Part shown: piece by piece, positions 1-54,900 of the stretch
Layout of the letters: each line of letters starts with the position of its first letter
How positions within the stretch are numbered: the first letter of the stretch is position 1
DNA from: Neospora caninum Liverpool
Lineage: Eukaryota > Apicomplexa > Conoidasida > Eucoccidiorida > Sarcocystidae
Assembly (NCBI RefSeq): GCF_000208865.1
Contig: NC_018395.1
Coordinates: 1,395,920-1,459,919 of the forward strand
Reading direction: 5' to 3'
Length of the DNA: 64,000 nt
Translations under genes and position numbers: made by a program
The notes under the pieces: generated by a model
Database searches by the model: none
The model's input: the letters and a program-made list of their open reading frames with translations, nothing else
What the model was told of the DNA's origin: nothing

Positions 1-3000
1 CAAGCTGCTTGAAAAAGAAGAAGGAGACAAACGGACGGAAGGAGCTCTCGACAGGGCCTCGGGCCTACAGGCCCTGTCGTGTCCAGAAGGCCTCGAGTAA
101 GTTGTCGCGGTACCCCCGTTCATGTCTCGCACTCGACTGAGGAAATTCAGGAGATTCTTGCACAATCGGCAGCCCAGCACGCCTTGTTTTGTGAGTGTCG
201 GGCGAGATTCACGGTGGCTGCAGACTACCGTCGGTCGTTGACCCTCCTGGAACGCCAGGAAAAAAACACACATTTCTTGCTCTTCATCGGTAAACACGTG
301 CCGTCTTCTGCCCTGAAGGAGTGTGTGGAAGAGTCGCCTCGACTGGCGAGTAGCAGTGACCAGTATATGCAGCGCTCTGTATGAAGCAAACAAAGCGGAT
401 GCTGGCACAGTGCACAGTCTTCAGAATACATTCAGCGATCGAAGTCTGTGTCCTCATGTGAGAGAGCAATGAGATCGTACAAACCGGCAGTCGAGGGGAC
501 TACACACGAAACTCTTGGTGTCGTGTGGCGTGGCGTGGTTCAACAGCTGGTGGCACGGGAAGCCAAGCTGCGGCTTCGCGTGCACAGATGACCTCAGAGA
601 CTACTGCAACATGAGTCCTACGCTAACGACTGTCGTGGAAAGATTTCACACTACCCAACCGTCTGCATGGAAGACGGTAGGAAGTTCCGTAGAAGCCCTG
701 CGGTCAACGTCGCGTTGAATACTTGGCAAAGAGCGACGCGAAAAACGTGAAGGGCGCTAAAGAGGTACATTTGGTCTCCTCGCGAAGCCCACCGCCGTCG
801 CCCAGACCCTACGACCAGTAGGGTCTGGGAACGACTGAATCGCGTCTGTTCGTCATTTCTTGCAACGAACAAAAAACACCACCCGAGACTAATGGGAGCA
901 CCAAACGTGCATGGTCCAGATTTCATGTGCATACACGTGCGGAATCACGATGTATTTCTCTCGTTTTCCACTTTGTCCTTCTGTTTACAGTTTTCTTTCT
1001 CACGTTCTACCACAACGGTTTCATTTGCGCTCGCCGTCGATAAATAGCGCTTCCGTTCTTCGTTTCTCTGCCAGTTGTTAAGTGGTGTCGCGGATTTCTC
1101 GTCTCCTTGTCTGCTTCCTTTTGACCTAGCGGTGGCACTCCTGCAGGGAAAACGGTTTTCTGTCGTGGAGCAAGAAGTGCAGAGGGGGGGAACAGTGTTG
1201 ATGCCAGTGTCTTTTAGCCGGTGGAGGCGCCCACATTGTGTGCCTGTCTTGTTGAGGCGCGTGGTTACAGGCTGCAGAGAGCTTCTACCTGAAACCTGAC
1301 GCGAACAGCATAGGCGGCCTCGCACCTCTACCCTCTTTCCAGCAGTTTTTGGGAGACTTTGAGAAGAAGGGTCGTACCACCGTGAACAGTGCAGCCGTCA
1401 AGCTCGTCGTCTGCTCTCTCCGGCGGAATCTGTCTTTCTACAAGGCCCCGATTCACGCCACAGAGGAGGAACTCGCAATGACTCAAGACGCCGTGAGTTG
1501 ACACTGAGGGACTGGCCTTGCCGCACAAAGGCCCCAACAGGACAAAACCCCCTTAAGTAGCAGCCAGGGCGTTCTCTGAGAACCCTCATTTGTAGGTGAC
1601 CTTGGATGCTAGTGTATGACGCATGCCTGTCTTCTCTCTGCTCACTTGCCAAGAAGCGGAAGTTTTCGTGCAAGCACCTGGAGTGCAGAAGCCTCAGTCA
1701 CGTGCAGCGCAAAACGTCCAGAATGATCCTTTCTGAATCCCTGACCAGCGATGAATCGAAACCCGTTCGGCACCAGGAGGCCTGTCTCCGCAAATTGTGC
1801 GTTGCTGTGTGCCTGCATCTGCAGATTTTGGACGCGATTGCAGGCATGGGGCCCAATATAGGAAATGGAGGGACTGCAAGCGCTTCAGGTGGACCGGTAG
1901 ATGTTCTCCGACACTACGCCACCTGCAAAAATCCGACGAGCAGAAGCTGCAGTGGCATGGACGGGTTTCTTCACGACGTTGGCTTGGGCTTGGACTTTTC
2001 AAACTTCGAGAAGGCTATCGGCCTCTCCACGCGAATGAGCCGCGGTATATCCACTTGCACGTTGAAGAAAACCTTGATAAACTCGTATCCCGAGGAACGC
2101 TTAATCCACACCCAGCGCACACTTGGTTGGTGGAACCTTTTCGGGAAGTGGACAGAGCATCAGGAAACTGAAATGTCTCTCTTTGGTCGGCGCACTGCCG
2201 CTCCGGTGTCACACAAAGGGACGACTTCGTGAATTCTAGTTATAGAAAAAACCACGTGCCAGTTTTCGGGCAAGACACGTGGAAGACTGTGTATCGTTCA
2301 AGCGTGAAACACATCTTTTACCCTGTCTCTTTATTTGCAGGAAGAGGAGTGTACATTCCACCTTGCTCGACATGGCTCATAGCGTTACAGTTCGCCGATC
2401 ACATCTACATTCAGACACACGACGGGAAAGGCAACATTGGTCAGAGTTTCTACAGATTGCTTGAACTCGCCCATTCATTGCAAGGACACTTCAGTTCATC
2501 GTCTGTTAGCTCCAGCGATCGATTTGCGTTCCATTCGTCTCTCGGTTACCTGACTACGATGCCCGAGTTTCTGGGCACTGGCATTCAACTCAAGGCGAAA
2601 CTGTACCTTCCTTATCTCCTCGCCAAGCCAGAAGAGACAGGAATACGCGAATTCGAGACGCTTTGTCAAAATCGTAATCTGGGGTTCAAACTTGTACACC
2701 CAGCTATTTTCGACCAAAGCAAAAACAGTACTGGTGAGATGCACAGATGTCCCCTCATTGCGAGCAACATCCGCGATAAAACAAAATTCCATGAAGCTCA
2801 AGAAGACCAGGGGCTCCGGTACCGAGTTTCCACGTACTCATAATCTATTTCAAGAACGAACCGAAATGGAAGCCCGGTTAAAGTAGTAGAGTTTTTCAGG
2901 ACTCTAAACAGTCTACCACTCTGCCCACTTATCTGAAAGAGAACCGGCAGACGCGCTATGCGTCAACTTTGTGTCCCGCACACGCGGCCTGAAGTGCATC

Positions 3001-6000
3001 CACCGTTGACAAAGCGGGCATGGTTATCTCTTCCTGGTAGTCCTAGCGTCATAAGCAAAGCACGGTTATAGGTCAGAGAAGCCAGAAACGCCTCTCCTCA
3101 CTTGTCTCCCTCGAGAAAGATGAGCCCCCTATGGTTTTTACAGCATAACGAGTGTATCTTTCCCTTCCCGTATTTGTCCGCTCCCGTTTCCAGACATGGG
3201 ATCCTGATGCCTTCTCTGCTCTGAGCTCTTGTCTACTCTTTGCTATGCGTATATCCCATTTCCTGTACGCGGTCGACTGCTTCTAGCGCTGCCTGTTTTC
3301 TCTCTCTTCACCTGGACAGCCATGGTCTGGGTCATGTCGACGGTCTCGTTGGGCGTGACCGAGTTGCAGCAACTCGAAGCCTTCATCAAGAGCGTCGACG
3401 CCATTCTGGAGCTGGAGGAAAGCAAAGCGGGCTCACTCGGTGCGACGCCGCCTCGAGCTCTCGCTGAAGAAGGTGAAGTCGTTCTTCCTCCCCTCCCTGA
3501 GAAAAAGGCCGCCAGCCAAGGGCCAACTGATTCACCCCGACCCAAAGTCGCGCCGAAAAAGGACATCGCCACGGCGGCAGGTCAGGCGCAGTGGAGAGAT
3601 ATACGGTACGCAACAGAGAAAAAAGAATGCTGTGTCTTTCTCGTACTACTACGATCCGTATTCCAGCTGGTGAAACACCTGTCGAGCACACGTACAACAA
3701 CTCTGCGGCAAAAAATAACCTTTTTTGACGCACACACTGCTGTAAGACAGGTCGGAAATAGGGGCACCTGCAACGTCAAGCAATTCTTTCTGCTCATGTG
3801 TACGCGTACATGCGTATCTGCGGGTGCTCATGAGCCTGTATGATTGAAGCACTTGCGAACTCCTATGGACGTTTGTATGTGAAAGCATCGGAGTGGGTAC
3901 GTCAACCTCGTGTATATTTAGGCGAGCCTCGCGTTTCCGAGTTCAGAGAATTCGACAGCGCGTGGCTGTGTGCGGGTGACATTCAGGACCGCGTTTGGAG
4001 GAAGCTCGCAGCACTGTGTCCACATTGGCAAGGCGTATAGGTTTCCAGGTATCGAAACAGAAGAAAGAGCGTTTTGTGCGAGACAGTTTGATTGTTTGGG
4101 GGTCGGTTGCATTGTAAGGGCGCGCAGTTTGCCTACGTGAGACTGGCAGACTGTGGCAATATTATCTACAAGATAAGGGCGCTGTTGACCGTTGCAGAAA
4201 GATGCAAGCTTTCCTCGTGTGTTGCCTCGCTAGATATTTGCCTTTATCGTCTGGCCAAAATATACATTTGGAGAGCAAGCAAGATGACTTGGTCGATGGA
4301 AGCTCTCGGGGTGATCTTGCCCGAGTGGCGTGTCCAGTTGAGATCCACATACTTTCCTACGCTCTGAAGTGGAGAACAACCGGAGAACGGTGTGCTCCCT
4401 ACAGCGAGGAGTCTGCTTTCTTTCTGGCGTTTTTTTTGAACACGCAGGTGACATTGCAGCAACAGATACTGACGCCTTTGTGAAATTTCGTGGTCTCTTC
4501 GAAGAGGTGATGGGGAAACCTCAGAATTCGATGGACGTCTTACTCAGTGCTGCATCGTCTTCACGGGCTTTGTTGGAAGTCTTTGATATGTTCCAAATCG
4601 CGGCTCTACTCGACGGTCTGCGGAAAGCTGTTTCTTTATCATGCATTCAAGTCAGCAACCTGTGCTTCATTACCTGCCGCAACTTCGCCTCCGTTCCTTT
4701 CTTGCCTTTCCTGGTGGCATCGCCGAGCTTCACGCGATACAATAACCGAGGGCTGCTGCATCTGGCAGAAGTGGAAAAGGCTGTAATTGCGAGATTGACA
4801 AGTAGCCAAGATCGAGATGACCCTCTTCCCCTGGTTGGCCAGCGGTATATTCCGGTCTCCAGTCTCACTGCACAGCAGCAGACGATTCTAAGAACCCGAT
4901 TCTTCGTCGATCTGCCCGATAAGAAGATGAACGCGGAGAAAGATGTCCTCGACAGCGCCTACGAATCCTTCAACTTCTGGCCGAGGCACAGAGGCGTTAT
5001 TTTCTCAGCGGATCAGACCATGGTGTGCCTCGTGAACTTTTGTGATCACGTCACCATCCTCGCCACATGTGACGACCAGGAACAACTCTGGTAAGGCTTC
5101 CGTCCAAAAACGCGCGACGCCATGAATCCACGGAAGACAAATGTTCGATGAAGGCTACCTGAGCGTTTCGGTTACTGCCAAGTCTTATGCCGCCGCTGTT
5201 ACTGAGACGCGAACACTCGTCGCACTCGGATAGCGTATGGAAGCCAATACACATGCGTGTGCTGATAGGTGTATATTCACTTGGGGGCCCATGACTGCGT
5301 GTGCCAATACCTAAGAAGACCGCAGTTGGAGACGTCGGCGAAGACATGACCTTCGGAGGCCAAGAATCCTCACCGCACGTGACTGCATCTAAACGCCTGG
5401 GTACTTTTCACTGTTTCGATGTGCAGCAACGGTATGACGATGCTTCGAGCGCTTCAAAGCATTCAGGCCACCTTGGCCGTGCTGGAAGATAGAGACGCCC
5501 CTGACGGCTTGGCCATCGCCCGACGGGCTGACATTGGCGGCTACGCGGGGCCCAATCTGAAGAAGAGTGTGTGCCTGGCGACTTCCATCGCAGCCCAAGT
5601 ACGCTGGACGAAAACGTGGCATCACCGGTTGTTCTACGCTCTTTCACAAGGCAGTCCTGAGGAAAGAACCAGTGTTGCCCATTCCTCCTGCAGCGCCATA
5701 GACTCGGGGCAGCGCTCATTCCACAGACACAATTTAGGAAAGACGCGCACACTGCGATTTGTCTGCTCTCTGTCTCTTCGCGTTCCCATCCTCCCTGTCA
5801 CCCACGATCCCGGCAGCGGTCGCTGTTGCGATGATTACCGGCGATGGCACGCCTGAAAGCGTGGGAGATTGCACGAGCACATTTTTTTGATGCAACAGGC
5901 ACAACCTGAGCAACGTGTACTGGATGTGCTCGGCTGGTTCCTTCAGCTCAGTGTAACGGGATTAAAGGCGGAAAGTGACAGTCGAGCGACAGCATGGGCC

Positions 6001-6180
6001 ACAGATTACCGGGATCGACTGGAAATTATAAGCGACTGGACGCCACGTGACGCTCCCGCCATTCCCGCCACAGCATCAACCCAAAAAGAGATGCCACAGC
6101 ATTCTGTAGTGGTCTCGAAGATGATCGCCTTTGATCACGAGGTGGAGCTGCTGGAGTCCTTCTTGAAAATCCTCACGTGA
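1..6180 (+). CDS. Tandem degenerate ATP:guanidino phosphotransferase-domain protein (5' end outside window)
   Basis: Exons that join in phase are 1343-1492, 1825-2044, 2341-2733, 3320-3580, 4448-5090, 5427-5598 and 5899-6180 (TGA); together they encode about 706 residues. An open frame at 2-96 ends in a GTAAGT donor, so the gene probably enters from the left edge. The stretch 97-1342 is unresolved. Two regions align by eye with the catalytic domain of arginine/creatine kinases. Domain 1 has RGVYI, then FADHIYI, then an FLGTGIQLKA segment. Domain 2 has LTAQQQTIL, FWPRHRGVIF, then NFCDHVTIL. These correspond to the family's LTxEEQ, WPxGRGIF and NEEDHLR segments. Both copies keep the Asp-His of NEEDH but lack the catalytic Glu, and the active-site Cys of CPTNLGT is also missing. 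A Pro/Lys-rich linker (about 3440-3580) separates the domains. Phosphagen kinase activity is therefore unlikely; a structural or ligand-binding role is inference. Confidence 0.72.
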
Positions 6181-23444: not shown

Positions 23445-26061
23445 ATGGAGGGCTCTGTCCCAGGCGAAGGAATGCGGACCCTCATGAGTTCGGGGCTCCC
23501 CAGGGTATCCCCGTCGCGGTGTCGCGGTCTCTCCGTCCCATTCGTATGCACCCTTTCCCTCTCTTCACGGCACGGCGTCCCTCCTTCGTCTCGGAAAATC
23601 CCTCCACCTTTTTGGACGTATCGGACACTCTGTGGCCGTTCTTCCGTTACAGCCTCCGGGAAGCCTGCCGCTCCGGGCAACCTCTTCTCTTCTGCCACTG
23701 GTGACGCTTCGTCTGTCTCAACCGGAGTGCTGGCCCAACTGTCTCAGAGGCGGTTTGTGAGACCAAACCAAGGGAGGAACGATTACAAGCAAGTGGGGGG
23801 GAAGAAGCGGGGCCAAGGCGTGCAGGTGCTCCCCGAAACGATTCGACTTCTGATCGAGACGAGAAAGGCCGCTACAGCCGGCGGTCCTGTTGGGCGCCAA
23901 CCGCTTCAAGTAAGTTGTGACGGGCAGCAGAATGCATTTCGAAAAAGGGGCTGTAACTTGTTTTTCAGGAACGAGCAGAGCCACTACACTTTCCCAATAG
24001 CAGTGCGAGCTGCTCGGTTCGACAGACGACGCCGGCCTGCGTTAACATATTTATATATATAGTATCGGTCAGATATTTTTTGTGCTGGAAAGAGGGTGTT
24101 AGGCAAGAGGACTGGACAAATCAGAGTGGCATAGTGGCGACTAAAGCATCCGTATATGCACATAAACGCATCGGCGTGTGTGTACGCATTACAAATGCAC
24201 ACGGAATCTCACCCATTCAGACTCGGGAGGGTATGTCCAGTCCTAAAACCGTGCAATTTTGTACGAAGATGCATCGAGGGTTGTTCTGCTACGTGTCCAC
24301 GGTGCGTCGTAGCTATTGGAAACGCAGAAGCATGCTGAGGCAACTGGCGCATCGAGTTGGGGTCGGGACAGGCGTTTCCCCATCACCGAGGCTCTTCGCC
24401 TACCCACCGTTGCAGAAGTGAACGCTCCATGGGAGCCTTCCGGCGAAGCTAGCAAACGGTCGTCCACACGGCCTTTGCCGTCATCTGTTGGGAACGACGA
24501 AGATCAGGATTACGGCTTTTCTGACGGAGTTGCTCGCCAACAGGAACGTCTCGGGGCACTCGACAAAGTGGCGCTGCATTCCGGAGGTGAGGCAGAACCT
24601 CTGCTGGTCGAGGAGCAGTTTTACACGAGTAGCGCGTACGAAACGCTCTGTCACTTTCCGGGAGTTGAAAAGGGTTTCTAGTCTTTTTGTGCTTGAAAAG
24701 GGCGGGCTAAGTCCCACACATGCTGCGTGTGTCCCAGCCGTTTCGAGGATACATCTAAAGGTCGCCACTCTTGTGTTCCTGAAGTCGTCGCCCATTGATT
24801 CCTACGTCCCTTTTAGAGTCGTCGCTATATTTCTGGTGCGTCGCGGTTTTTGCAACAGACGCTTTGGTGTTGACCGACGAAGTGGCTGCTGGTGTGTATC
24901 TGTTCAGATATATCGCATTTGCGCGTCGACGCGACAGTTGTGGGGGCAGCTCGGTCGTTCAAGGTTGTTGGCGACGGCCGAGGCTTCACGGGATGCTCAG
25001 CTCTTCTCGAGGGTGCAGGGCCCTGTCTAGCGTCGTTCATTTCTCAACAACGCCGGCATTTCGGCGAGGAGTTGCTTCATACGCCCGTGCGCGGCGACCT
25101 GTCCAGTGCGCACATGGTGGCTGCAGCCGCTGTTCGGGCGCTCCGTCGCGGCGTTCACCTCTTCACCGCCTCCACGGTTCCCCCTCCGTTGCGTTCCTCG
25201 TCGATGGTGCCTTCCTTGGCAGAGATCGAAGAAATGCCTACTATGGAACTTTCCCAGGTTGCAGCTCGTGCCGCTGTTTTGGGTGTACGCGGAGGAGGCG
25301 CCGGAGCAAGGGGGCCGGGTATGTCTTCTACTCAGAACGGAAATGTGGGAGGCATGTCGGCTGCATCAGGTTCTGAGTCGGACGCTGGTGGGTCATATGC
25401 AGATGGTGTCAGAGACAAGGCCCTATTGCATGTTTCCGACGATAACCTGTACAAGGCTCCCCTGGATCCTTCGCAGTTGTCGCCTCCAGGAGCAGTTTTG
25501 ATTTCGCCGGGATTCAACTTGCCATCCAGTTTTCTCATTCATGTTGCAGAACCGAACGCGGTTCTGTCTAATCAGCAAATGCTCGACGCCCTGTTTCGGC
25601 AAGAGGAGCGGGAAGCGCTTCGCCGCAAAGAGAAACTCCTTTCGAGGTTCGGCACTGCTCAGGCAGCCGATGACGCAATGAGCGACGAAGAAGTTGAAGA
25701 AGACAAGGAGTTGACAGCTTCCTCTGGATCGCCGTGGCAGGATGAAAATGAGCACGGTGTGCAGAGGATGCTGTTGCTAGAAGAATGCTACATCAATGCC
25801 CTGAACGCAGCATGGGCCTTGGGAGTGCGTTCCGTTGCTCTCCCGTGTCTTGGGGCTGGCGTAGGACGGTTCCCGGTGTTCATTGCTGCGAGATGCGCTG
25901 CCAGAGGCGTGGCTAGGTGGATTGCGGAACAACGAGGGCGTGATTCACGGGGAAACACGGAGAGCGACGAGAGAACCGATTTTGAAAGGATTGTGTTTTG
26001 CACCTCGAGCGATGTTGAGTGGAACGCGCTGAGGAGAGTCATCCCACAGTTTCTCTCCTAG
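23445..26061 (+). CDS. Macro-domain (ADP-ribose-binding fold) protein
   Basis: Three exons, 23445-23909, 24313-24586 and 24908-26061, join in phases 0 and 1 to 630 residues. The start ATG has an excellent context (GCCGCCATGG). Residues 1-245 are Ser/Arg/Pro-rich with no recognised domain. Residues about 245-625 form a macro domain interrupted by low-complexity inserts. Visible blocks are GDISHLRVDATVVGAAR (family GDITxLxVDAIVNAAN), GDGRGFTG (family GGGGVDG), PPGAVLISPGFNLPSSFLIHV (family GEAVITPGYNLPAKYVIHT), LLLEECYINALNAAW, LPCLGAGVGRFP (family FPAISTGVYGFP) and a final FERIVFC strand. The Asn-Ala-Ala-Asn signature is replaced by Gly-Ala-Ala-Arg. Macro domains bind or hydrolyse ADP-ribose conjugates; loss of these Asn makes hydrolase activity doubtful, though binding may remain. 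Acidic insert DEEVEEDKE sits near residue 505. Cellular location is not evident. Confidence 0.8.
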
Positions 26062-45993: not shown

Positions 45994-48900
45994 ATGGACC
46001 CGCCACCGGTCGACTCCGAACCTTCTCGCTTCTCCTTTTCTTCCTTCTCTTCTGTCCCTGACGGAGACCCTGAGGCCGGTCAGCTCGTGTCTGCGTCGCT
46101 GCCTGCTGCCTTGCTTGACTCGCTATGGCTGCCTTCGTCCATTGACCTCCTCGCTGCTCGCCTCAAACTCCTTCACCTGCGGGCGGAGCGGAACGCTCGC
46201 TGCGTTTCCCCTGCGCCCCTCGCTGATTTTTCTCCTGGCGGTCCAGCTGCGCTTGCGCCGTCTTCGGCCTACGAAGGACGGGGGGTGGACTCTGGCGAAA
46301 GGCAGGCGCCAGAAGAGAAGACGCGCGAGGACGCATGCGCTTCGCTGCATGCATCCATCGATGCCTTTGTCTTTCAGCCGCAGAATGCCCTGAAAGGCGG
46401 TTCTCCGTTCGCCTCAAATCCTTTGGCAGCTGGGACCCACCAGAATGGCCGTGTGACAGCGGAGGCGCGGGCGGGCGGCGACTCGCGCCGCAGCGCTGAC
46501 GCGGGAAGCCGAGACTTCGCTCCCCGCACCAGCGACTCTGCATGCGCGCCCTGCGGGCCTCCCAACCCCTCGCGGAACCGAGAAGATGACAGAAAAGAGG
46601 ATGAGAGTGCAGACGGAGAAGACAAAGGGAAGGGGCGTGACGAGCCTGGCCGCAGGAAAGGTGGCGCCTTCGGAGAGGAAGAGCCGGTCTTGAGAGAGAG
46701 GACGGAGAAGCAAGAAGGCAGGGCGAAGACGGGCGAGAATGCTGGCGTTGCGCTGCCACGACTTAAAAGGTCACGTATCAAGGGACGAGAAGCCATTCGC
46801 GGCGTCGACGTCCTTCTGCACTATTCCAGCACTCTCACGCCTCAAAGGGAAGTGATGGCCGCCGTCATTCAGGCGTGCCAAAGCGAGAAACACGCCATCA
46901 TCGAGAGCCCCACAGGTACGCGTTTTGGTCACCAGTTCGCTTCGCTGGAGTCAGAAAGCGGCGTCGGACCTCTTTCGGATCTCTGCTGACTGAAGTTTTT
47001 TCTCTCTTCCCCGAAAAACCCTGACGCCTACTACGTTTCTGGTCGCTGCGCACCACGCTTGCCTGCCTCTCTTACCGGCTAGCGCCGACCCTCCACCTCT
47101 CTGCAAGCTCTGAACTTTTGCTTGCCCAGACTCCTGCCCCTCTACATCTGAGAAGTCCACGCGTCGGCAGACGCGCGAGAGAGGTGTCTGTGTTCCTAGG
47201 CAACCGTGGGAAGTGGCGCCCGGAGACAGGAAGCAAGGCGTCGCAGCCCACACAAAGAGAAAGAAACTCGATGCATGCGGCAGGTACTGTGGCCCACGCT
47301 GCTGCTCTTCCGTCCAAGAAAAAGTATCACCCAGATGATGACTCACTCAGTTGGACAGAACGAGGCGAGGCCGCCCTTTCCTCTTTTCTTTCGCAGGAAC
47401 CGGGAAGACGGCGGCTCTCCTTTGCGCGACCCTTGCGTGGCAGAGAGACGCTCAAACGGAGGCGAACAGCAGAAACGTGGGGCGGATTATTTACTGCACG
47501 CGGACTCAAAAGCAAGCATCACAGGTGAGAAGATCGCTTGGGCGTCTTTTCTCTGTCCTATTTCCTCCGGGGACTGGGGGCCCTCGTGTCCTGCGTTAGG
47601 TCGGCTCTCGGTTCGGCTTTCGCGCGGGCTCTGCTCTCAGTCCTCGCGCCCCGCTGGTTCGCCCTTCCGCTCTTCGCAGGCGTGTGTCGCCTTTGTGTGT
47701 TTCCCTAGACGAGGCCTCTGGTGGTCTCCCGTTCCTCGCTCTTCGCCTCGTGGTCCGTGATACCGTCTTCGCTGCCGCGTTTGCTCCGGATATTTCTAGG
47801 TGATTGGCGAACTGAAGAAAAGCCCGTACCAGCCTGCCGCCGTCCAGCTCGCATCGCGCTCGCACCTCTGTCCCTACATGAATCCTTCTCTTCGATCGTT
47901 TGTTATCTCTGCCGCTTCCCACCACCTCTCCCACGAGTCTTCCTGTTCTTGCCCCTCTCGTTCCCCCTCGTCTGCCTCTTCTTCCTCTTTCTGTCCTGAG
48001 GCTCGGCCGTCTCCGCCGACCTCTCTCCCCCCTGCTCTGCATGCACCTTCACTGCCTGCCGCGTCTCCTGCCGGGGGACACCCCAGAGGGAAACGGCAGG
48101 GGGTGGAGCCGCCTGTGTGCTTCGACGAGACAGACTCCACGAGAAAACGGAAGAATGAGGAGACCGAGAAGAACGAACCGCTCGAGAAGACAGAGGGAGC
48201 TCGTGGCCCTCAGCCTGAGACAGGGCACGAGGAGACGAGCGAAGCTTCTTTGCCTGTCAAGGCCGAAGAACCCAACGGGCTTCGGCCCGAGACGAAGACG
48301 GAGCCCGCTTCAGATTCCCAAAAAAGCCGTAGAGAGCAAGCGAATGGAAATCCGTGGTCCACACCGAACAGGTTTCTTCGCGTCAAACAGGGCCCTGTCT
48401 CTTCCGTCGCGTCCAAAAGGACCGCTTCGTTTCCGGGGGCGCGGAACAAACACGGGAGCGACTCGGGGTCGAGCGGGGGGCTGTCTGTCACCTTTCCTTC
48501 TGCGGAAAAGGGTGGCGCGTCAACTGTCTCGCATTCCCGCCTTCCCCACAAAGAGAAGAAGTATATCCAGTGTTCTCTGGACGCGCTCCTAGCAAAGATG
48601 AAGACCCGCTCACCGCGCGGAGAGGCCAGAGGACTCATCCACACGACGGACCCCACTGTTCGGTCGCACCGGGAAGGGAAGGAAGAGAGGGAAGGCGATG
48701 AGTCGGCAAGACACAGCGCCTGGCTCTGCTCGAAACGCAGAGAAGCGCCGCTGTCTGCGGACGCCAGCAGATTTCTTCGGCAGCTGCTCCTTCTCCCCGC
48801 CGCTGTTTCCTCCGGGTCTTCGCTGGCAAATTCCGCGCGCCTGGTGGAAGACGACGAATGTCGGCAATCCGGGACGCGAGTGGACGCCTGGCGGCGAAGA

Positions 48901-51900
48901 GCCGGGCGATTTCGCGACAGAAGCGAAACGGACAGCTTCGCCTTTCTCCTCGACAGACTCCTGGGCTTTGCTGTCGACAGCTGTGCTGCGCGTGGCCGCG
49001 AAGCCTCGGCGAGCTCCCCCCAGAACGCAGCTGCTTCAGAGAGAGCCGAAAACGAAGAGGAAGAAAACGCTGGAGAGGAAGACGATGCGGGAGACGGCGA
49101 GGCACACGAGAGCGGCGGCGGTGCTTGGACGTGGGCGACGGGGCAACAGCCTGAGACGAGGCGTTTGGCGCGCAGCCTTGGAGAGCGAAAGCGAGTCAAG
49201 TTGAGCGGGGAGAAGGGGACAGAGCTGGCGACAGCTTCCTCGCTCCGTCGGAATGCGAAGAGCGGCGCGGAGAGCTGGCAGGCTGCGCGTCGACCTCAGG
49301 ACCATCCCCTCGATCAGCCTGACGGCTGGCTGTGTCCCTTCTACGTTCGTTTGGGCGAGAGGCGCTTTGCGGAGAGCCTCTTTGATCGCGCGCGACCCAG
49401 GCTCGTGCTCTGTTCGGCGCAGGGCGCGTCTCAGGCTGCAGTCGACTGCGAAGCGCCGAAGGGAACAGGAGACACAGGGTGCGGTCCTGAGGGATGCGCA
49501 GCAGACGCGAACGGAGCAGGAAACGCGTCGACAGTCGAGCACGCAGGCGTTGGAGAGGGCTGCAGCAACCAGGAAGCGGGGTGCGAAGAAGACCGCGGTG
49601 CAATGGACATTGAAGAACTCGCAAAGTTCGCCCTGACGTCGTTTTGTTCGCTGCCACCCGATAGGGGCTGCGTCTCCGTCTCTCGCTCCAGAGTCTCCCA
49701 GAAGCAGAGGCAACTGTTGTCCGCTGCCGGCGCGTGTCCGTACCACGCAACGCTCTCGCTTCTACCCGCGGCCGACCTGGTTGTTTGCCCCTACAACTAC
49801 GTCCTCGACCCGGGCGTGTCGGCGAGCTCGAAGCTTAACGACTTGCTCAAAGGTGAGGGCCAAGCGAGGAGGAAGCTCGGCGCGCATGCGTCGCGCATGC
49901 GCGCTGGAACGGGGATGCATGGTGCGGTGGCCCGGCCGCCGAGCGGCACGCGCCCGAGAGGGGGCCTGCACACAGCGGCACAGCAGGGGTTGCGCAGGGG
50001 TGTTCACGCGCCCGAGAAGGCCGGCTGAAAAGAACCGTGAGAGAACACAGGGCGCGTCTTCCACGCCAGCTGTGTCGGCGTGTGCCTCGACGTGCACAGG
50101 AGAAAACGGAGCGTTCGAGAACAGAAAGTGGACGCAGAAAGCTCTTTTGAGATCCGAACCACGTCTGTGAATGCCTGGGGGTGTTGCAGCCCCTAGGCTT
50201 GGTCCCCGTTCGTATTTGTGTCGTCTCCCCCGTTTTCTCGCGCCTCTGCGTCTGTGTTTGCGAGTTCCTCTGTCCTGCGAGTATGTGCCTTGGCTCTTCC
50301 AGGTTCAGTCATCATCTTCGACGAAGGTCACAACGTCGAATCGATTTGCAGAGAGGTCGGCAGTCTCGACTTGCGCCTCCCACGGCTGGTCGCTCTCTTC
50401 CACTGGGCAGAGGCCATTCGCGGCTACATCGCCAAGCAGATCGCGTCTCCAGACGCTGCCGGCGTGCCGCTTTCCTTCGCGCCGTTCTCCTTCGCACCAG
50501 AAGCTTTGCATGCGAAAGACTTCTCTTCCTTCTTTTCAAGTGCACCCGCCTTTTCGACGTCTTCGGAGTCCGCGGCTCTCCCCGCGTCTGGGCACGGGCC
50601 GGGAGAGCCTGGCGAAGAGGAGGCCAAGCGGCGCCTGATCTCTTCGTGTCTCCCTGTTCTCCTCGACTTTCTTGGGCGCCTGATTCAGGTGGGAGTCAAG
50701 GCGACAGAGGGTCGCCGAGCGTTGGCCCGGGCCGTTCAGCAGCACGGGGCCGAGCTCGGCGCAGAGATCGCGTGGAGACGCAGGGGGAAGCTGCGTGCGG
50801 GTCAGGGCGGCAAAACGTGGGCGAGCTGGCGGAGCGGCGCTCCCGGCGGGAGACACAGCGGCCAGGGGCCCGAAGACTCAGAGCGCTTGATGGCTGTTAC
50901 TCTGAGGAGATGGGGCGGGGAGGTCAAACGCCGCGCCGGGGATGCTCGTGCGCCTGCTTCTTTTTCTTGCCTTCCTTCCCAGTCTTCCGTGGGGCCCTCT
51001 GGCGCCGGTCTACTCCGGCCAATTCCACCCGCGCTTCGTCCGCCTCCCTCGCCCATGTCGCAGTCTCTTCCTCGGCCCTCCTTTCCTGCTTTCGCTTCTT
51101 CTGCTCATTTTCCCAGGGAGCCCGCTCCACTTCCCCGCGCGTATTCCGCGCCGACTTTGGACGGCTGCCTGGACTTTCTTCTCGAGATGGGCGTGGCACG
51201 CCCAGAAGCTGAGGCGTACGGCAGCAAGGTGAAGGCGTCGCTCGACGAGATTCACCGTCTTCTTCTTCTAGCAGATCCGCAACAAGCTTCGAACGTGACG
51301 CGCGACCACGCGAACTGGGGAGACAGTCGAGAGATGCGAGAGCTGGAGAACCTCGTGCACATCTTCGCTCTCCTTACTGCCCACCCAAACTGCTACCAGG
51401 TGCGCCTGTCCTCAGAACTGCCCGAAGAGGAAGTCGAACGCCTGCTGTCTCTGCCCGAGACGCCCCGGAGCCCCGACCGGACTGGGCCTGCGTCCAGCCC
51501 CTGGGGATCGACAGAAGAGATGGATGCAGAACTTGAGGGACAGAGCGAGCGACACGCAGAGCCTGAGCGGACTCGTGCACCGGGCGAACGCGAGACTTCC
51601 ACTAGCACGTCCAAAACGCTGTGCTTAAGAAACATGTGCCTTCACCTGTGGCTCCTCGCCCCCGCCGTCACCTTTGAGAGGATCAGCGCGCAAGCACGAA
51701 CAGTCATCGTTGCCTCCGGGACTCTTGAGCCCATCGAATCTTTAATGTAAGAAAACTCGCTCTCTCTCTTTTCTCTCTCTTTTCCTCTGTCTTTTCCTCT
51801 CTCCTTTCCTCTCGAGGCACTTGTCTCTTCAATCACGCCTGTGTTCGTGCAACGTGTGATGACACAGAAACATACGTGTCCGTTGACTGCACTTACGCTT

Positions 51901-54900
51901 CGATCTCTAGAAATATATACCGCTCTATGTATATATTTGCATCTTTAGATGCCTTTTCTGCATGCTACGTGTGTATATTGTCATTTTGTAGCGACTGACT
52001 GCTTCTTCCCTGCGGTTTCCCGCGGAAGCCCGCAGAGGGAGTTTCCAGTGCCACATGCACCAGAAAGACGTCTCTCCTCGCTTCTGTTTGCAACGCAGGT
52101 CGGAGCTCGGACCCTCTTTCACGCGACGGCTGCTGCCCACGCCTGTGCGTGCGGGCCACGTCGCGGCTCCTGCACAGCTCGCCATCGCCTGTCTCCGAAC
52201 GATGCCGATCGGCGAGTCTCCGTCCGTTTTTTTCCCGCCTGGAGGTCTGGTGGACGCGCACTCTCCCCAAGTTTCCGGGCCTTTCGCTTCCTCTGCCCCT
52301 CCTGCACCCTCCCCTCCCGACTCCAACTCCTGCATGCAAACGCAGACCTTTTCCGCTTCTTCCTGTCCTTCCTTTCCTTCTTCCGCTGCTTCTGCTCCTG
52401 GATGTCGACAGCGTCCCGCGTCAATGCAGTCTCTTTCCCAAAGCAGAACGAGTAACCAAGCGTTTCGGTTCTCTCTGCCTGCGCGCCCGTCCGTTTCGCT
52501 CTCTCGTTCGTCGGCGTTTGCGGCGGGGCAGTCGGTGCCGCTCGAGTGCACCAACCGGCAGCTGTCGAATCCGTCTTTTCTCGTCCACCTCGGCTGGTGC
52601 ATTGCGCAGCTGGTTCAGGCGATCCCTGGCGGCATTCTCGTCTTCTTCCCCTCCTTCAGCATGTTGGAGCGAGCCCAGAGACTGTGGCGTGCGGGCTCGC
52701 GGGGGCGAGAGTTCGGGTCGGACTCGGCGGCGCCCAAGGCCCGAGCGAGGAGACGGAGCGGCGACGAGAAGAGCGAAGGCCCCAAGAAACGTGGAGGCTC
52801 TCGGCAGCATTTCTCCTTTTCACAGGCGCATGCAGACAAGGGCGGGTGGCAAGCGAGCGACCGCGCCGACTCGGAGCGCATGCAGTCAGTCTGGCAAGTG
52901 CTCACGCTGTTGAAGAAGACCGTGCTTGTGGAGCGCGGGACTGATGCTCCTTCTCCGCCTCCCGTTTTTTGTCGCCCTCGCCGCCGGTCGGATTCGGCCT
53001 CAGACTCTGAAGAACTCGACCAAGCCCCAGACCCTGGTCGGCTCTCGCTGGCGAGAAGCGACGCAGCAGGCGACGCTGGAGGCGGTTGCGAGAGGGATCC
53101 TAAGGAGGTCTTCTGTGAGAGCGTGGACGTTCAAGGCCATGCGCTGATGCTGGCTGTTTACCGTGGCAAAATGAGCGAGGGCCTGTCGTTCAACGACGAC
53201 TACTGCCGAGGCGTCATTTGCATAGGCATCCCTTATCCTGCTTTTCGAGATCCCAAGATCGAGAGCAAAATGCGATTCAACGACACTCTTCACCTCCTCA
53301 GTCCCTCGCCAGAACACCTTCTCTCTTCAGCCTCTCCTCCCGTTCCTGGCCCATCTTCGTCCGCGTGTCCAGCTCCGCCTCGTCTTCTCGCTTCTTCCTT
53401 GTCTTCTCTCTCTTGTCGCTCTTCTCTCTCTTCTCTCCCTTCTGCTGCGTCTTGCCTTCAGCGCGCGAGCGACTCAGAGGCAGCGCGCGAGAAAGGAGAG
53501 TCTTTTCTTAGGACGGCGGAAACCGGAGGAAAAGCTGGAGGACAGGACAGCCGCTGCTTGCGCAGCGAAGGCGATGGAAAGACTCCTACCCTGTTTGCGA
53601 CGCCCTGGCAGGGAGAAGGGTGGGAGGCGACACCGGCAACGCCCTGGCTAGACGGCCGAAGGTGGTACACCATCCAGGCGTACAGAGCTCTGAACCAGGC
53701 GATCGGACGGTGCATTCGACACATGTAAGCTGCCAAATCTTGACGTCTCCGCTCCACACACATGCGCACATGCATCTACGGAAACACAAACTGACCTAGC
53801 CAATCAGACTCTCTTTAGCTGTCGACAGAGGGCAAAGCCGCGGGTTTCCGTTCAAACCCGCGTGAGAGCGAAGGAAAACGCCGCTTCGGGGTTTTTGGAT
53901 ACACACACGCGGATGAAACCAACATATACACACAGTTATAATGATACTTTGTGTAGTTTCTAAGATTTCCATGTTGACTAGTATATATTTACATATTCTG
54001 AAACGTATATACATATATATATATATATATATGGATGGATAGATAGATTGTGAGATACCTCCTCTAGAGTGGATGGTAACTGAAGGAAAGCAAATGGCAT
54101 GTCCTTTTTTGTTTGTTTTTCTCCTGTTTCTCGTTTGATTCGCAAGTGTTTGGCAGGGGTGTGGAAGAGGGAACGGCTTCCGTTTGAGCATCGTGTTCGC
54201 GCGATGGTTTTTGGTTTGTGCCTCCGCGTTTTTGTTTCATTTCCTCGTACTGGTTTCTTCTCTTTCCGACTCTCTACCGTCATGTCTTTTCCCCTTTTCT
54301 CTCTCGGCCCTCCTCTCTTCCTCGCTTTCGTCCGTCTCGTCGCCGCTATCATCTCGAGCTTTTCGCTGTCTCCCTCCTGTCTCCCGCACGCTCTGTGTCC
54401 CTGCAGACACGACTACGGCGTTGTCATTCTATTGGACTCTCGCCACGTTTTACCTTCCGCCTCCAAGTGTGCATCCTTTGCGCCTTCGTCTCTCGCTTCT
54501 CTCTCCCGTGGCGGTCCAGCCCCTGTGAACGCGCTACAGCGCCCGCCCGAGACCGGCGGCACTTCCCCACACTTTTTTTGCCGGTGGTTCCTCCCTCACC
54601 TGCACACTTTCACTTCCTGCGACTCTCTCGTTCAAGCTCTCCGCGGTCACTTCTATGTCGCCCCGCGCGTTGCCGCTCACAGGCGCCTCCTCGCCGCTTC
54701 GGGCCTGCCTGCAGGCACGCACACCCTGCTTGGGGCTGTCGCCTGCGCTTCTTCTCAGCGAAAGGGCGGCGACGCCAGCGTCCAGGGAGACTCGCCGGAC
54801 AGCGCCGAAGAAGCGAAGACGCAGGCAGAGTCGCGGGCGAGAAAAGAGCTGGACGAGAAGGAGAATGCACTCCAGAGCGGCCGCGACGGCTGGCCTGGAA

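Follow-up and report, generated by a model that had tools for sequence, protein, structure and literature searches.

A coccidian protein of three tandem phosphagen-kinase-like domains with replaced active-site residues, a candidate non-catalytic scaffold

The locus described here raises the question of what a protein built from repeated phosphagen-kinase-like domains may do once the residues of the active site have been replaced. The window, by which we mean the whole stretch of 64,000 nucleotides that was analysed, corresponds to C10:1395920-1459919 of a 57.5 Mb genome in 14 contigs; two such domains, B and C, are encoded within its positions 547-6180, and a further domain, A, lies upstream (L002). 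The preliminary description had the feature begin at 1343, which is a high-scoring acceptor-like site within exon 1271-1492; in the gene models that exon begins at 1271, and the gene itself starts about 5.3 kb before the window, with an ATG at C10:1390581 as located by eye. The features in the window are listed below.

1..96, plus strand: end of an exon begun upstream, in the stretch between domains A and B (P0011 residues 513-543; donor GA/GTAAGT).
547..676, plus strand: exon of the N-terminal subdomain of domain B, with SCGFACTDDLRDYC at 566-607 (by eye the counterpart of the arginine kinase GIYAPDAEAY segment).
1271..1492, plus strand: domain B exon; the place of STRVR is now KLVVCSLRRN, 1400-1429 (splicing, alignment).
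1825..2044, plus strand: domain B exon (P0011 match, splicing).
2341..2733, plus strand: exon of the domain B catalytic core, with FADH in the place of NEEDH at 2391-2402 and TTMPEFLGTG in the place of CPTNLGT at 2553-2582 (whole-genome PF00217 match).
3320..3605, plus strand: end of domain B (LGVTELQ, 3349-3369) and proline-rich linker (P0011 match, splicing).
3987..4048, plus strand: exon of the N-terminal subdomain of domain C, TAFGGSSQHCVHIGKAYRFPG (P0011 match; present in the Besnoitia model P0013).
4448..5090, plus strand: domain C exon with DIAATDTDAF at 4450-4479, NLCFITCRNF in the place of STRVR at 4657-4686, HRGVIF at 4987-5004 and VNFCDH at 5032-5049 (PF00217 E=4.2e-4 for domain C).
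5427..5598, plus strand: domain C exon with GGYAGPN in the place of the active-site Cys loop at 5536-5556, GGYAG itself being 5536-5550 (alignment, splicing).
5947..6180, plus strand: last exon of domain C with the stop codon (P0011 match, splicing).

Joined in silico, the nine consecutive exons from 547 onwards give a single open frame that ends with the TGA at 6178-6180; each is preceded by AG, and all except the last, which ends in the stop codon, are followed by GT. The spliced product is identical, letter for letter, to residues 544-1330 of the database model P0011, which continues upstream through the exon ending at position 96 and then through domain A, and the encoded chain is about 1,200 to 1,330 residues long. 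The gene models of the locus, P0011, P0012 and P0014, disagree in their exons, stretches present in the Besnoitia and Toxoplasma models are absent from P0011 and P0012, and the end of the T. gondii model seemingly reads through, judged by eye, into the intron after the linker.

The relation of this chain to phosphagen kinases was characterized by profile searches and alignment. PF00217 matched the whole chain of P0011 with an E-value of 4e-26, that of the Besnoitia besnoiti model P0013 with 3.8e-29 and that of the Toxoplasma gondii model P0014 with 1.1e-24, in three, three and two stretches, respectively (stretches counted at E<=10). The family assignment of the preliminary description is borne out by this match, and so are its two domains in the window, although its count of two tandem copies falls short, since domain A, upstream, is a third and P0011 and P0013 each show three stretches. 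When the domains were scanned singly, with a query that, like the one used for relatives, included predicted exon stretches (24 residues; a long start) absent from the relatives' models, PF00217 placed B over the cut-off (8.3e-18) and both C (4.2e-4) and A (0.031) under it, A scoring lower than C (14.1 vs 20.2 bits). PF02807 matched domain A of P0011 with E=0.0016 (19.3 bits, below the cut-off of 25.7), or E=0.0098 with A scanned singly; it was not reported at E<=10 for P0013 or P0014, and the N-terminal parts of B and C are seen by alignment only.

Alignment by hhalign with three arginine-kinase domains from solved structures gave 85% for A (269 columns), 97% for B (293 columns) and 63% for C (195 columns), the best of 60 column shuffles per domain reaching 2%. 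Against one another the three domains remained below 4%, so that all three lie closer to arginine kinase than to one another, and the earlier impression that the copies are similarly degraded is not supported. Among solved structures, the B+C chain also matches a taurocyamine kinase, 4wo8 (E=5e-12), and an arginine kinase, 4rf6 (E=1e-10). By its sequence, the protein is made of three tandem phosphagen-kinase-like domains, the last two of which are in the window, and is homologous to the phosphagen kinases (PF00217 and PF02807), the alignment showing counterparts of their N-terminal and catalytic parts in each repeat. A tree of 13 bacterial sequences (of 47 loci), three arginine-kinase domains and two, three and two rows for A, B and C, respectively, gave no order of branching for the three domains, which sit on stems of 5.7-7.6 changes per column, the distances within a domain between genera being at most 0.25. 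AlphaFold returned a pLDDT of 30 from three coccidian rows; once 26 bacterial arginine kinases had joined the alignment it produced a kinase fold for B, which the added rows help to force, and since that guided alignment placed arginine-kinase N-termini on domain A the model is not independent evidence of the fold.

The active-site residues were read by eye from the alignment with 4bg4 and 4rf6, and PDB titles name mutants of C271, H227, H284 and E314. The counterpart of NEEDH is N-W-K/R-N-H in A, Q-F-A/V-D-H in B and N-F-C-D-H in C; the catalytic Glu (E225) is replaced in all three domains, by Lys/Arg, Ala/Val and Cys, respectively, and in both window domains the Asp-His that follows it is kept, as first described. 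The residue that now stands for the lost Glu differs from genus to genus, being Ala, Ala and Val in B and Arg, Lys and Lys in A for T. gondii, the window genome and Besnoitia, respectively, as would be expected if it no longer matters. The active-site Cys (C271, in the CPTNLGT loop) has given way to Asp in A, Met in B and Pro in C, with LGT retained in B, which agrees with the replacement of this segment noted earlier for the two window domains. Arginines 124, 126, 229, 280 and 309 are the ATP-contacting ones. At these places A has Leu, Cys, Arg, Thr and Arg (two of five kept), B has Val, Ser, Tyr, Gln and Lys/Glu (none) and C has Cys, Ile, Thr, Ala and Thr/Ala (none), the letters at 124 and 126 hinging on gap placement (in B, Val and Ser ungapped, Ala and Ser in a column-count alignment). 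STRVR had been called at best partly preserved, which proves too generous: neither of its two arginines pairs with a kept one in A, B or C.

We also asked how the losses are distributed in domain B, over 55 columns whose conservation among 26 bacterial arginine kinases reaches 92% or more; eight of these columns we chose as catalytic or ligand columns. T. gondii keeps 22 of the 55 but none of the eight (p=0.011), the window genome keeps 21 but again none (p=0.015), and Besnoitia keeps 22 and one of the eight, a Glu at the E314 place (p=0.09). Residue loss in B therefore leans to the active site, with eight columns of our own choosing and a Besnoitia value that is not significant. A still active, highly divergent kinase that relies on other residues would be in keeping with the Asp-His that B and C retain after the lost Glu, but it appears very improbable, since all three domains are devoid of the catalytic Glu and the active-site Cys and the ATP arginines are missing from B and C and largely from A. 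The same losses, together with its three domains, set the protein apart from phosphagen kinases; judged by its residues it is a pseudo-member of that family, not an active one, and the non-catalytic role that the preliminary description had proposed is likely.

A gene whose product has lost its catalytic residues might simply be decaying, and the comparison with its relatives bears on this. Relatives in other coccidia are present as gene models in Toxoplasma (P0014, domains A and B) and in Besnoitia (P0013, all three domains), the latter genus belonging to the Sarcocystidae. The T. gondii protein carries the name 'ATP:guanido phosphotransferase, C-terminal catalytic domain-containing protein', and the Besnoitia protein is 'hypothetical' at NCBI with a phosphagen-kinase C-terminal-domain name in UniRef; that these two proteins contain a phosphagen-kinase domain is already known, being flagged by databases. 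Whole-chain searches returned the same four proteins only (7,989 and 7,996 scored candidates), and with domain B alone none of 7,991 scored candidates came up as a relative at E<=10; as the search needs shared exact words and similar length, it could miss fragmentary models of Eimeria, Cystoisospora or Sarcocystis, and a separate T. gondii protein carrying domain C could also escape it.

Between the window genome and Besnoitia, the N-terminal part and the rest of each domain are 76% and 77% identical in A, 73% and 77% in B and 82% and 89% in C. Outside the domains, identity is 84% over the A-B stretch and 63% over the B-C linker; the former is as conserved as the domains, which are therefore not alone in being conserved. 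With T. gondii the identity is 83-89% over A and B, 92% over the stretch between them and 72% over the linker; that model ends before C, which is confirmed in one relative, Besnoitia. A decaying pseudogene or an artefact of gene prediction, to which the differing exons of P0011, P0012 and P0014 and the early end of the T. gondii model could point, is hard to reconcile with a Besnoitia model that is colinear through all three domains at 73-89% identity and with nine window exons that are bounded by AG and GT, or by the stop codon in the last, in an open frame. We regard it as highly unlikely, and the identity to Besnoitia indicates that the gene is not decaying. Long stems followed by little change suggest a burst of change and later constraint, a pattern that fits a new non-catalytic role.

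Could the protein have a working relative in the same genome, or still bind a substrate of the family? Searches of the 57.5 Mb with PF00217 and with shrimp arginine kinase revealed no intact phosphagen kinase elsewhere; both found one place only, the degenerate B exon 2341-2733, in line with the earlier remark that no phosphagen system is obvious. PF00217 had no match in 14 control genomes, and the sensitivity of the search rests on the degenerate B having been found, whereas PF02807 found nothing in this genome and likewise nothing in the controls and is hence uninformative. A working phosphagen system should not be assumed in Toxoplasma from the label 'ATP:guanido phosphotransferase' that databases give to its protein.

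Substrate binding could nevertheless have outlasted turnover, at least one domain acting as a sensor that binds a nucleotide or guanidino compound and reports to a partner. The H-L-R of NEEDHLR (R229) survives in domain A together with an Arg where R309 would be, the LGTG loop is retained in B, and in Besnoitia the B domain has a Glu in the position of E314; B and C, however, have none of the five ATP-contacting arginines, and the positions themselves drift between genera, the catalytic Glu place being Ala/Val in B and Lys/Arg in A and the R309 place of B being Lys/Glu. We consider a sensor rather unlikely, though least so for domain A. Nucleotide sensing, one of the two functions suggested in the preliminary description, is accordingly disfavoured on the by-eye count of zero of five arginines in both B and C.

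We find it fairly probable, from the residues and their conservation, that the protein is a pseudo-phosphagen kinase serving as a non-catalytic scaffold. Its ancestor would have been an active phosphagen kinase, the fold of which may have been retained as a rigid scaffold or adaptor whose surfaces bind partner proteins. Domain C would be the likeliest binding surface, because it has the lowest hhalign likeness to arginine kinase and is the most conserved towards Besnoitia. One point against a scaffold is that A keeps R229 and the Arg aligned to R309, which would permit weak ligand binding. As for its location, the best guess is the male-gamete flagellum, since in other lineages flagella are where repeated phosphotransfer enzymes are found.

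This location can be taken further, to a relict of a multi-domain flagellar phosphagen kinase that would now be an axoneme-anchored structural element of the male gamete, a reading by analogy that we consider possible if doubtful. As set out in PMC11779644, mammalian radial spokes carry adenylate kinases that have one, two or four catalytic domains and are held there by domains of the RIIa/DPY30 type; the accessible text of PMC12399478 names arginine kinase(s) beside ciliary adenylate kinases in Tetrahymena, and those of PMC12221091 and PMC3471859 link phosphagen kinases of stramenopiles to zoospores or flagella. Creatine kinases occur in Perkinsus, a related alveolate, according to a title cited in PMC9678886. 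Yet the main texts of four gamete papers (PMC8993856, PMC4345034, PMC4150949 and PMC6365665) do not name the family for these parasites. A fuller scenario, in which an alveolate ancestor had a flagellar phosphagen kinase of three domains that ceased to be catalytic on the way to the cyst-forming coccidia and was kept, after loss of the phosphagen system, as a male-gamete axoneme component anchored by a docking domain, seems less likely still; if true, an energy-shuttle enzyme would have turned into a structural part once the phosphagen system was gone.

The anchoring step was examined at the N-terminus of P0011, which by eye resembles a docking domain of the RIIa/DPY30 type, in a genome that encodes RIIa exons (two over the cut-off) and Dpy-30 exons (three over the cut-off). 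Home-made profiles, however, score this N-terminus at 0-1.6 bits, values that are reached by 230, 116 and 522 out of 5000 shuffles, and by 8, 19 and 53 out of 1015 ORFs in the window, with the RIIa, DPY30 and joint profiles, respectively. Pfam gives nothing at E<=10 for the segment, the genome searches with RIIa and Dpy-30 do not list the N-terminal exon (an intron splits the segment, which handicaps both), and the Toxoplasma and Besnoitia models are without that N-terminus. Not clearly better than shuffles and with no Pfam match, the docking domain remains a guess. In the rest of the genome, L053 and L054 (RIIa) and L057, L058 and L059 (Dpy-30) are the exons that pass the Pfam cut-off; of their peptides, that of L053 matches PKA RII and radial-spoke RSP7/RSP11 chains, and that of L058 matches DPY30 and adenylate kinase 7.

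Among the closest known systems are the Anthopleura arginine kinase (4rf6-4rf9) and the Schistosoma taurocyamine kinase (4wo8), in which full-length domains also stand in tandem in one chain; they are the top sequence matches and the top Foldseek matches of the arginine-kinase-guided model. Both have two domains, each with the catalytic-loop E-E-D and CP(S/T)NLGT in the printed alignments, whereas the coccidian protein has three domains that are scarcely alike and has lost both motifs. The sea-urchin sperm flagellar creatine kinase carries three tandem domains in one chain, an arrangement shared with the coccidian protein, but is an active enzyme; that the coccidian protein descended from such a three-domain flagellar enzyme is a guess. 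Pseudo-enzymes are well known among protein kinases, and a conserved triple-domain case in Toxoplasma relatives would show an energy-buffering enzyme family outliving its chemistry. The radial-spoke kinases AK7, AK8 and AK9 are alike in manner of working only, as far as the accessible text of PMC11779644 goes: their nucleotide-kinase domains, repeated in AK8 and AK9, are part of a larger structure, but the fold differs from that of phosphagen kinases and their anchoring domain has no established counterpart here. A literature search, whose coverage of subscription papers was poor, retrieved no paper on the three-domain sea-urchin enzyme or on pseudo- or inactive phosphagen kinases and, among the papers listed, no description of an apicomplexan pseudo-phosphagen kinase or of this protein, the accessible parts of PMC12221091, PMC9678886 and PMC3471859 included.

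As to the neighbouring genes, the one upstream (L004, about 700-6100, minus strand) resembles by eye an importin-type HEAT-repeat protein. Further along the window, an open frame at 24874-26058 contains a Macro domain (2.5e-12), and open frames at 47800-53725 match DEAD_2 (1.9e-7) and Helicase_C_2 (5.7e-29) and are probably pieces of one XPD/RTEL1-type helicase gene.
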